Part shown: positions 18,486-32,877 of the stretch, piece by piece
Layout of the letters: every line of letters starts with the position of its first letter
How positions within the stretch are numbered: position 1 is the stretch's first letter
Source: Acidobacteriota bacterium
Lineage (GTDB): Bacteria > Acidobacteriota > Blastocatellia > Pyrinomonadales > Pyrinomonadaceae
NCBI GenBank assembly: GCA_025463135.1
Contig: JAOAPY010000005.1
Span: 1 to 64,000 of the forward strand
DNA: 64,000 nt
Direction of reading: 5' to 3'
Made by a program: the position numbers and the translations under genes
The notes under the pieces: model-generated
Told to the model about the DNA's origin: nothing
The model's input: only the letters and a program-made list of their open reading frames with translations
Databases searched by the model: none

Positions 18486-18643
18486 CGGGACCGCACGATC
18501 CTGCGTGCTGAGCCTCATCGATCATTCCCCTCTCAAGAAATATTACAACGCCCGCAACTCTACTTTCAGAGCGCGGGCGTTTTCCTTTCATTCTCAATCC
18601 AGCATGCGACGCGTGTTTAGCAGGCAGGATGCCTGCGGTCCCA
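18486..18643. repeat. Inverted pair of GGGACCGCACGCATCCTGCG-type repeats plus hairpin
   Basis: GGGACCGCACGATCCTGCGT (18487 onward) and the inverse GCAGGATGCCTGCGGTCCCA (to 18643) bracket the prkA-hydrolase interval. Between them CGCCCGC and GCGGGCG (18549-18580) can pair as a hairpin followed by a short TTTT on the plus strand. Other copies of the family are at 21811, 32254, 32331 and 32758. Confidence 0.75.
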
Positions 18644-18645
18644 GC

Positions 18646-20583
18646 CTACCGCGACAGCAGGGTTCCCACGTATGTCAGCAGCTCGTTCGCGCAAACCGGG
18701 CAGTAGCCGTGGTCCTTTACCAAACGATCCACGACGTCGTTGATCTTACGCAATTGATCGGGATCCGGCGTCTTGGCCGAGGTAGTAATCTTCACGACAT
18801 CTTTCAGGTCGGCAAAGATCTTTTTCTCAATCGCTTCTTTCAAACGCTCGTGCGAGTTGTATTCAAAGGGCTTGCCCTTGCGCGCATATGACGAGATGCG
18901 GATGAGTATCTCCTGCCGGAAAGTGTTCTTCGCATTTTCAGTGATGCCGATCTGCTCTTCGATCGAGCGCATCAGTTGTTCGTCGGGATCCATTTCTTCT
19001 TCCGTAATCGGATCCTTGATTCGTTCCTTATTGCAGTAGGCTTCGACGTTATCGAGATAGTTGTTGCACATGGTGCGCGCCATCTCTTCATAAGAGTAAA
19101 CGAAAGCCCTCTGCACTTCGGTTTTTGCCAGCTCGTCGTATTCTTTACGCGACTGCGAAATCAAATTGAGATAACGCTCGCGCTGGTCGGCGCTGATCCC
19201 GGTATGTTGTTCAAAACCGTCTTTGATGGCGCGCAGGGCGTCGATGGGATTGATGCAGGTCACACCGTCGCGCACCAGCGCACTGGAAAGACGGTTGATG
19301 ATATAGCGGGGCGAGATGCCGTCCATCCCCTCGCGTATTGAATCTTCTTTCAACTCGCGTACGTCTTTCGATTTGTAACCTTCGACGTCCTCGCCGTCGT
19401 AAAGTTTCATCTTCTTGACGATATCGACGTTGGCTTTCTTCGGCTCTTCCAGGCGCGTCATCACGGCGAACATCGCCGCGACTTTCAAAGTGTTGGGCGC
19501 CAGGTGCACGCTGCGCAGCGCTTCCGACTGGTGCAGCAGCTTGTCATAGATGCGTTCTTCCTGCGAGACGCGCAGGTTATAGGGCACCCGCACCAGGATG
19601 ATGCGATCCTGCAGGGCTTCTGACTTGCGGTTGCCGGCAAAGGCGATGTACTCGTTCTCGTTCGAGTGAGAAAGAATCACCTCGTCGGCATAGATCATCG
19701 CAAAGCGGCCGGTTTTGATGCTCTGTTCCTGCGAAAGCGTCAGCAGGCTGTAGAGGAACTTCTCGTCGACTTTCAACATCTCGACGAATTCCATCAGGCC
19801 GCGGTTGGCAATGTTCAGCTCGCCATCAAAACGATATGCACGGGGATCGGATTCGACTCCAACCTCGCCGATGGTCGATAGATCGATGGATCCGGTTAGT
19901 TCCGTGATGTCCTGCGATTTCGGATCGCTCGGCGAGAAGGTACCGATGCCCACGCGTTCCTTCTCAGAAAACCCAACGCGTTGCACGCGCACGTCTTCAT
20001 GGCGTCCGTTGTAGGTGTGTTCCAGCGCATAACGGCATTGCGGGCAAAGGTCGCCTTCGATGTAAATGCCGTAATGCTTATCGATCTCGGCGCGCAATTC
20101 GTGCGGAATCAGATGCAGCGGCTCCTCGTGCATCGGGCAGTCTTTGATTGAATAGACAGCGCCGCCTTCGGTCTTGGTCCAGGCTTCCAGACCGCGTTTG
20201 AGCATGCTGACGATGGTTGATTTGCCGCCGCCGACAGGACCCATCAGAAGCAAAATGCGCTTGCGTACTTCCAGGCGCTGGGCCGCGGATTTGAAATACT
20301 CAACCAGCCGGGCGACGGGTTCTTCGATGCCGAACAATTCCGGAGAGAAAAATTTGTAGGCGATGATTTCGTCGCGCGTGCCTTCGTTGAGACGCTCGAG
20401 GCCGGCAGCCTGAATCATGTCATTCAGGCGAGCGTGTGAGAGTTGGGCGATGCGAGGATTCTGGGTTACCAGTTCGAAATAGTCGCGGAAGGTCCCTTCC
20501 CAACGCAAAGCCTCATGGACGCGCCGCAGATCTTCAAGTCTTTCGCTAATATTAAATTTTTTGCTGCCATCCTGCTCTTCCAT
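18646..20583 (-). CDS. prkA: PrkA family serine protein kinase
   Basis: The 645-residue protein (ATG at 20583, AAGG just upstream) has the PrkA AAA-type ATPase domain with P-loop LLMGPVGGGKST (about residues 113-123), FVEMLKVDEKFLYSLLTL and YADEVILSHSNENEY, followed by the C-terminal kinase-like region (CNNYLDNVEAYCNKE, DEQLMRSIEEQIGI). Two paired-cysteine knuckles are visible, DLCPQCRYA and GYCPVCANE. E. coli YeaG and B. subtilis PrkA act in starvation and sporulation control. It is the first gene of a minus-strand cluster with a hydrolase, yeaH and spoVR, and is probably the signalling component of that module. Confidence 0.95.
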   Translation of the reverse strand: MEEQDGSKKFNISERLEDLRRVHEALRWEGTFRDYFELVTQNPRIAQLSHARLNDMIQAAGLERLNEGTRDEIIAYKFFSPELFGIEEPVARLVEYFKSAAQRLEVRKRILLLMGPVGGGKSTIVSMLKRGLEAWTKTEGGAVYSIKDCPMHEEPLHLIPHELRAEIDKHYGIYIEGDLCPQCRYALEHTYNGRHEDVRVQRVGFSEKERVGIGTFSPSDPKSQDITELTGSIDLSTIGEVGVESDPRAYRFDGELNIANRGLMEFVEMLKVDEKFLYSLLTLSQEQSIKTGRFAMIYADEVILSHSNENEYIAFAGNRKSEALQDRIILVRVPYNLRVSQEERIYDKLLHQSEALRSVHLAPNTLKVAAMFAVMTRLEEPKKANVDIVKKMKLYDGEDVEGYKSKDVRELKEDSIREGMDGISPRYIINRLSSALVRDGVTCINPIDALRAIKDGFEQHTGISADQRERYLNLISQSRKEYDELAKTEVQRAFVYSYEEMARTMCNNYLDNVEAYCNKERIKDPITEEEMDPDEQLMRSIEEQIGITENAKNTFRQEILIRISSYARKGKPFEYNSHERLKEAIEKKIFADLKDVVKITTSAKTPDPDQLRKINDVVDRLVKDHGYCPVCANELLTYVGTLLSR

Positions 20584-20975
20584 AGCCTTTTCAAACCTCA
20601 TTGGCTGTCGCGCGTGGATAGCGTGGGGGAAAAGCACGCCCTGAAAACAGCAATCAGTTCGTTTTGCGGCTGCTGTGGCACGCGCAGGTTGCGCGTGGGC
20701 AATCCGTTGGTTGCTGTTACCGTTTCATCTCGATATGTGCGCCACTGTGCGCGGAAGCAGCGGCGCGGCATCTTCGAGACAATCAGTAAAATGATTGGTT
20801 CTCAATGATCACTTCAACGATCGGCTTTCAATGATCTTAGTTTGGCAATCGGTCGGTGAGCTGGGAGCCAGGCTGTTGGAAGCGAACCGGTCGCTTTCAT
20901 CCCCGTTACGGTGAGCTCAGTATAGCACAGCCGATCAGGGGTCAAGTCAATGGTTGTTTTTTCGCGCACGAGTGA

Positions 20976-21165: not shown

Positions 21166-22113
21166 TTATCGCGCCAGCACAACCTTTGGCTGCAACGTTC
21201 CACTGACCTTGTCAAAGATCCCAATCGCGAGCAGATTGCCCTCGGCATCGCGCATACGGACTTTCTCACCATCCACCCACGCCGCCTCAGCTTCCATTTT
21301 GATCTGCATGCCGTTGCGTGTGCGCGCGGCGTCGGCAGCGGTTAGATGCAGGAAAGGGAGCCCTGAGAGTGCTGCGTCCGTCGAGACAATCAGATCCGCC
21401 ATCTCGTCGCTGGATACCTTTAGTTCCAGGTCTTCCAAACTCACGGCCGCCGTGATGCGAAAGTCGCCGGCGCGGGTGCGCCTGAGAGCGATGAGGTGCG
21501 CGCCCACTCCAAGACGACGGCCCAAATCTTCGGCCAGCGTTCTGATGTAAGTTCCGGCTGAGCTGACAACACGCACAGCAAGATCGCTCGTGCCATCTTC
21601 GTTTCTTGTGAGTAACCTCCCGTCACGGGCAACCGTTTCAAATTCATGAATGATGACCCGCACGGCCGGTCGTTCGATTTCCTCGCCGCGTCGTGCGAGT
21701 TCGTAAAGTTTGCGCCCCTGATGCTTCTTCGCCGAATACATCGGCGGCACCTGATCGATCTCACCACGCATGCCGGTCAACGCTTCTTCAATCTCTTCAT
21801 CGCTCAATCCCTGGGACCGCACGCATCCTGCGTGCTGCTCTTGCTCCAAAATCGCTCCGGTGAGGTCACCAGTATCCGTCCCATACCCGAACCTGATCAC
21901 CGCTTCATATTCCTTTTCCGCACCGCTCAGGAATTGCGCCAAACGCGTCGCGCGTCCGACCAGAATCACCAGCACGCCGGTCGCAAACGGATCCAGCGTT
22001 CCGGTATGGCCGATGCGGCGCTCCCGCAGAATGCGCCGCACCCGCGCCACCACGTCGTGCGAAGTAATCCCGGCCGGCTTGTCGATGATCAAAACTCCAT
22101 CCATGAAAGGCAT
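21166..22113 (-). CDS. truB: tRNA pseudouridine-55 synthase with in-frame repeat insertion
   Basis: Makes pseudouridine 55 in the T-loop of tRNAs. The ATG at 22113 was chosen because the longer frame translates a repeat. Motifs: DGVLIIDKPAGITSHDV at the N-terminus, HTGTLDPFATGVL with catalytic Asp41, and VPPMYSAKKHQGRKLYELARRG, which is nearly invariant in TruB. A C-terminal PUA-like domain follows (VDGEKVRMRDAEGNLLAIG). Residues 93-101 (QHAGCVRSQ) are encoded exactly by a 27-bp copy of an intergenic repeat (21811-21837). They lie in a variable loop between GAILE and LSDEEIEEAL, so the enzyme should tolerate them. Confidence 0.95.
   Translation of the reverse strand: MPFMDGVLIIDKPAGITSHDVVARVRRILRERRIGHTGTLDPFATGVLVILVGRATRLAQFLSGAEKEYEAVIRFGYGTDTGDLTGAILEQEQHAGCVRSQGLSDEEIEEALTGMRGEIDQVPPMYSAKKHQGRKLYELARRGEEIERPAVRVIIHEFETVARDGRLLTRNEDGTSDLAVRVVSSAGTYIRTLAEDLGRRLGVGAHLIALRRTRAGDFRITAAVSLEDLELKVSSDEMADLIVSTDAALSGLPFLHLTAADAARTRNGMQIKMEAEAAWVDGEKVRMRDAEGNLLAIGIFDKVSGTLQPKVVLAR
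21811..21837. repeat. 27-bp repeat inside truB, identical to 32758-32784
   Basis: All 27 bases match the noncoding copy at 32758-32784. The length is a multiple of three and it begins and ends at codon boundaries, adding nine residues. Confidence 0.92.
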
Positions 22114-32247: not shown

Positions 32248-32461
32248 GTCTGCCTGGGACTGCACGCAGCCTGCGTGCTAACGTTCCCGAAGAGGCAGCT
32301 GACCTCGAAATGTTTATCTTCCGCGGGATTAGCACGCAGGATGCGTGCGGTCCCAGGTTCGGCGTCGCGCGCGGATCGCTTTCCACAGCTTCCTCATGCG
32401 ACTTTTCGATTTGTTAGAGATAGTTTTATTCATTGGACTCTCGTTTGAAACAGGCTGAATG
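32248..32461. repeat. Inverted pair of the GGGACCGCACGCATCCTGCG repeat
   Basis: Copies at 32254-32279 (CTGGGACTGCACGCAGCCTG) and 32331-32356 (inverse) bracket a small interval. No gene is supported between 32248 and 32461. Confidence 0.75.
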
Positions 32462-32686: not shown

Positions 32687-32757
32687 GACGGGTCCTCCAC
32701 TCACTAACGCGCAACGCGGAGCAAAAAAGGACCACCCCAGGAAAAATATTTTCTGGC

Positions 32758-32784
32758 CTGGGACCGCACGCATCCTGCGTGCTG
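32758..32784. repeat. Noncoding copy of the 27-bp repeat found in truB
   Basis: Identical over 27 bases to 21811-21837. It lies in the 191-base interval between the small gene at 32462 and the kinase stop codon. Confidence 0.9.
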
Positions 32785-32877
32785 ACATTCCCAAAGAAGC
32801 AATTGACAGTGAAATGGTTGTCTCACCCAGCGATCAGCATGCTGGAAGCGTGTGGTCCCGGATGGTGTGGGGTGAAA

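Follow-up and report, generated by a model that had tools for sequence, protein, structure and literature searches.

REPs inside truB have been described before. Di Nocera et al. reported in 2013 that the truB genes of Stenotrophomonas maltophilia, Erythrobacter litoralis, and Sphingopyxis alaskensis contain REPs (PMC3733652), and a passage of the same paper, citing earlier work, places RPE-1, a Rickettsia palindromic element, in the truB gene of Rickettsia conorii. REPs occur as solo copies or as inverted doublets (REPINs), and decay is the expected fate of solo copies (PMC3116915). A literature search for REPs in coding regions of Acidobacteriota returned only PMC3733652, while searches for RPEs together with pseudouridine synthase, and for heptamers, returned nothing. 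Here, we describe an element within truB of an Acidobacteriota bacterium, found in a 64,000-nucleotide stretch of DNA (the window, meaning the whole stretch that was analyzed). The original prediction, made on the letters of the window, was that a loop of a housekeeping enzyme had tolerated a short mobile palindrome. This is supported by the analysis, and the parallel that had been drawn to the Rickettsia palindromic elements is apt in view of the RPE-1 copy mentioned above.

Results

The truB element and its copies in the window

The host gene encodes a clear TruB, which matches the TIGR00431 TruB equivalog of NCBIfam above the cut-off. Solved TruB structures in the PDB match the protein with E values down to 9e-54, and an AlphaFold model of this TruB (mean pLDDT, 92.9) gave a Z score of 32.9 against E. 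coli TruB (1k8w). Read on the minus strand, the element encodes QHAGCVRSQ, as had been proposed, and six of its six reading frames are open.

The 27-mer at 21811 to 21837 is identical to the noncoding copy at 32758 to 32784, as originally claimed (chance expectation of 0 from 100 shuffles), and with one more base leftward the match is 28 bp long (21810 to 21837 and 32757 to 32784). The degenerate copies named earlier were also recovered, and a further copy at 32837 to 32859 had been overlooked (Table 1). All three noncoding loci of the window are inverted pairs, not single repeats; the truB copy is partnerless, the solo half of a REPIN. It had also been pointed out that the element begins and ends on codon boundaries. 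This is true of the 27-mer but uninformative, because the consensus of the REP family, running approximately from CCT to GC(TG), has no sharp ends. The REPIN at 18487 to 18644 lies between the next gene and a 663-aa ORF (18646 to 20637), a putative pnp by its size and position.

Table 1. Coordinates in the window of the truB gene, the element within it, and the related intergenic doublets
Feature	Position	Strand	Description
truB, tRNA pseudouridine(55) synthase	21169..22113	-	315 aa; host gene; element forms residues 93-101 in the variable loop
Solo REP in truB	21810..21837	+	Head CCTGGGACC; 7-bp stem GCACGCA/TGCGTGC; loop TCC; tail TG
Intergenic REPIN doublet	18487..18644	.	Left REP ~18487-18510 (+), with a 1-bp deletion; right REP 18618-18644 (-), GCAGGCA stem variant
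Intergenic REPIN doublet, 103 bp	32254..32356	.	REPs 32254-32280 (+) and 32330-32356 (-)
Intergenic REPIN doublet, ~102 bp	32758..32859	.	REPs 32758-32784 (+) and 32837-32859 (-); the left REP has the same sequence as the truB copy

The REP family in this genome

Genome-wide, there are 67 copies with the exact core and approximately 161 copies with at most three mismatches. A grammar scan, using the head GGGACC followed by a 7-bp stem and a 3-nt loop, was run on ~1.0 Mb of the genome's own sequence around the copies. It returned 126 matches, versus 1, 3, and 2 for three unrelated control heads. The stem letters covary with the partner strand (GCACGCA in 48 matches, GCACGCT in 32, GCACGCG and GCACGCC in 10 each, GCAGGCA in 9, and others). 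In 110 of the 126 matches, the loop reads TCC. Head positions are 96 to 98% conserved, which is partly by construction, the head being part of the search pattern. Compared with shuffled sequences, folding of the single-stranded DNA hairpin gave a z score of -3.6 and that of the doublet a z score of -10.1.

For arrangement and location, 161 copies within the same ~1.0 Mb were classified; these were chosen by criteria slightly unlike those of the genome-wide count, and the two numbers are the same by coincidence. Among them were 50 inverted neighboring pairs with a modal length of 97 to 101 bp, a single pair arranged otherwise, and 60 solo copies. A simple ORF scorer placed 120 of the classified copies between genes and 11 internal to genes. 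Another 24, near the 5′ ends of ORFs, were set aside and not taken as intragenic, the start codons probably being wrong. Two further patterns were found post hoc and are not relied on: the GCAGGC/GCGGGC stem variant seems more frequent among copies inside genes than among the others (4/13 versus 6/148; Fisher P value, 0.004; e.g., loci L068, L072, L074, and L094), and solo copies are in excess inside genes (P value, 0.02).

The family thus fits the definition of REPs as short imperfect palindromes (20 to 40 bp) in many dispersed, mostly extragenic copies, with a conserved unpaired 5′ head beside a stem that carries compensatory changes. Fixed-spacing inverted doublets are commoner than other arrangements, the truB copy itself being solo. 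We have very high confidence that this is a REP family with REPIN architecture. The GTAG and CGTC REP superfamilies were ruled out as its place, the head being GGGACC, and the family is filed as REP-type.

Distribution among relatives and candidate transposases

The REP family is nearly absent from 98 relatives of the same taxonomic family, with 0 or 1 match per genome and single matches in four of them. It has therefore expanded in this lineage. The exact 23-mer is present in a few other genomes, which are other Acidobacteriota MAGs and two Verrucomicrobium strains, and one genome that holds it also has a doublet of the same grammar (L225).

Six Y1-type transposase genes are present in this genome, none with this REP within ~1.5 kb. 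In a groundwater Acidobacteria MAG, which also has exact copies, a RAYT lies between inverted REPs of the form GGGAAC-GCCAATC-TCCT. With this RAYT as the query, relatives were found in other members of the taxonomic family; the same protein search of this draft genome found no RAYT of the cognate clade (best match, E value of 1e-5). In one family member, G033, a RAYT has CTGGGACC-GCGGGCG-TCC REPs on both sides, in which the head and loop are as here and the stem is different. The RAYTs of four other genomes (G002, G081, G134, and G136) are flanked by head variants with the loop TCC or similar. A RAYT of the G033-type clade is likely to have spread the REP family here, and the cognate RAYT may since have been lost or may lie in a gap of the draft genome.

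The TruB loop across relatives

The loop that follows the TGDxTG motif was compared across 104 TruB genes of the taxonomic family and class, this one included (105 rows, one genome appearing twice). Its length varies from 20 to 206 residues. The original prediction had regarded the absence of exactly nine residues from relatives as a sign of insertion, and their presence with unrelated synonymous codons as a sign of an old protein feature. QHAGCVRSQ occurs in none of the 103 relatives' TruBs, so the latter was not seen, but a clean nine-residue insertion is not demonstrable because the loop is hypervariable. Minus the nine residues, this loop is 20 residues long, the low extreme, nearly all relatives having at least 22. 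Therefore, either sequence was also deleted or replaced during the event, or the ancestral loop was short.

The loops of many relatives are themselves repeat DNA. Those of G023, G024, and G027 contain heptamer arrays (AATTACG type and AAGTCTC type) that occur at many further places of the same genome, and none of these heptamers was found in this Acidobacteriota genome. In G017, a 20-bp palindrome unrelated to this REP is found at 44 places, 7 of them in the TruB loop, and is absent from six congeners. The G017 loop (L122; G017:C174:35512-36071) reaches 206 residues by tandem units of ~102 bp, each with the 20-bp palindrome that is scattered genome-wide. In several relatives (e.g., L127, L133, and L144), arrays of period 7 also immediately precede the truB start. 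A second variable loop with tandem heptamers lies right before the [CS]SAGTY motif (e.g., L051 and L145). In-frame tandem heptamers were seen in conserved proteins of G027 (L289 to L300) and G023 (L283, L284, and L288), including MutS2-like, CoaBC-like, and kynureninase-like proteins, a P-type ATPase, and a nickel insertion protein.

A DNA feature of TruB might actively draw repeat insertions, beyond offering a tolerant loop. Strong period-7 windows within the truB coding region would suit such targeting, being found in the first loop in 17 of 104 genes, in the second variable loop in 12 of 103, and elsewhere in only 3 genes, as would the share of the G017 palindrome in this loop and the fact that truB carries a REP or RPE in four other taxa (PMC3733652). 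However, these repeats are of mechanistically distinct classes and turn up in other proteins as well: in a control that counted TruB itself, the loop repeats were inside genes at 4 of 13 loci in G023, 8 of 13 in G027, and 3 of 24 in G017. TruB is therefore a recurrent site but not the sole one. These observations fit selective tolerance of surface loops, the simplest reading of the recurrent repeats in TruB, and make active targeting improbable. On balance, and with appreciable doubt, we favor the view that the variable loop and the second loop of TruB are places where unrelated, genome-specific repeats (REPs, palindromes, and tandem heptamers) have repeatedly landed and been built into the protein, many times independently, in this taxonomic family and apparently in Rickettsia and Proteobacteria, making TruB loops an archive of genome repeat families.

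Copies inside other proteins

Copies away from gene ends were found in TruB, ThiD, MutL, HypF, a CatA-like acetyltransferase, a VWA protein, a glycoside-hydrolase-like protein (Pfam match under the cut-off), and a large putative membrane protein, and a degenerate copy lies in a putative methyltransferase gene. At least eight further proteins besides TruB thus carry REP copies. Proteins were named by Pfam or NCBIfam matches where these were found, the putative membrane protein and methyltransferase being named from sequence only. ThiD contains a whole doublet, equal to ~38 residues, that separates GGH from EAIDLL. The solved structures of ThiD are without the doublet and have EAVD within a few residues after GGHL. 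The check originally proposed, a genome-wide count with the phase of coding copies, yielded the numbers given above and the finding that the intragenic copies use at least five of the six reading frames.

The latter bears on the idea that the truB copy was domesticated, its palindrome or peptide being kept for regulation of the truB mRNA or for alteration of the enzyme. The truB copy has the majority sequence, although decay would be expected of a solo copy (PMC3116915), and REPs in other bacteria are thought to serve as RNA or DNA signals (PMC3733652), both of which would agree with domestication. Against this, copies lie in unrelated proteins in at least five frames, and therefore the encoded peptide does not look selected; the diversity of frames argues for tolerance over the use of one particular peptide. 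In addition, the same loop of relatives is filled with unrelated sequences, with no conserved function of this sequence. We consider domestication even less probable than targeting.

Proposed origin of the truB element

We are confident, with little reservation, that a REP of a lineage-specific GGGACC/TCC family, most likely spread by a RAYT, landed in the hypervariable loop of TruB and was probably kept as neutral. According to this explanation, a RAYT (a TnpA_REP-type HUH transposase) of the clade found beside GGGACC/TCC REPs in relatives would move the nonautonomous REP family. The insertion into the hypervariable loop on the TruB surface would be either of one unit or of a doublet that then lost one half. 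The net length change would preserve the frame, TruB would stay functional, and the insertion would be retained as neutral. We infer that TruB activity was preserved despite the element because the element is open in all six frames and the reading frame of truB is kept, and neutral tolerance of the insert is the likely outcome.

That the element was inserted into truB is deduced with high confidence from its family membership rather than seen, since no close relative with an empty site is among the data; a search for a second genome of the same genus found none. The identity of the truB copy to the majority sequence makes a recent insertion plausible. What counts against insertion of a RAYT-spread REP is that a RAYT of the cognate clade was searched for here without success and that no Y1 gene of this genome is flanked by this REP. 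The highly improbable notion that the nine residues are ancestral, with the repeat match due to chance or to reverse copying, has virtually nothing in its favor beyond the loop being natural in TruB, and it is opposed by the 28-bp identity to a 161-copy family (chance expectation of zero) and by the absence of the nine residues from all 103 relatives.

Discussion

The findings presented here indicate that mobile hairpin DNA becomes protein sequence in conserved enzymes (TruB, ThiD, MutL, and HypF) outside Rickettsia. The TruB loop offers a natural comparative system, in which a single site can be followed over approximately a hundred species with varied repeats, so that how repeat-derived protein segments arise, are tolerated, and decay can be tested directly.

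Among known systems, REPs and REPINs with their RAYTs (Bertels and Rainey 2011, PMC3116915; Di Nocera 2013, PMC3733652; PMC6006769) share with this family an imperfect palindrome of 20 to 30 bp with a conserved 5′ head, fixed-spacing inverted doublets that are mostly intergenic, and a putatively cognate RAYT that, in relatives, is flanked by the same REP design. They differ in that the head here is GGGACC, not GTAG or CGTC, and in that no cognate RAYT was found in this genome. The family described here also comes from a group of Acidobacteriota in which no earlier report of such elements was found. The REPs of S. maltophilia, E. litoralis, and S. alaskensis likewise lie inside the gene for tRNA pseudouridine synthase B, but they belong to GTAG/CGTC families and to a different phylum. 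The RPEs are also palindromic repeats that are tolerated in frame in conserved proteins, a likeness of behavior only; RPE-1 is described as longer, whereas the units here measure 27 to 28 bp (~100 bp as a doublet) and mostly lie between genes.

The original prediction had called the family undescribed. Its kind is already known, namely, a REP/REPIN family with RAYT-type relatives, and, given the three truB genes reported in 2013, the presence of a REP within truB is likewise no novelty in kind (PMC3733652). As far as could be found, two things are absent from these known systems: the GGGACC/TCC family, for which relatives carry a REPtron of the same head and loop, and the occurrence of many unrelated repeats within one TruB loop in a single taxonomic family.
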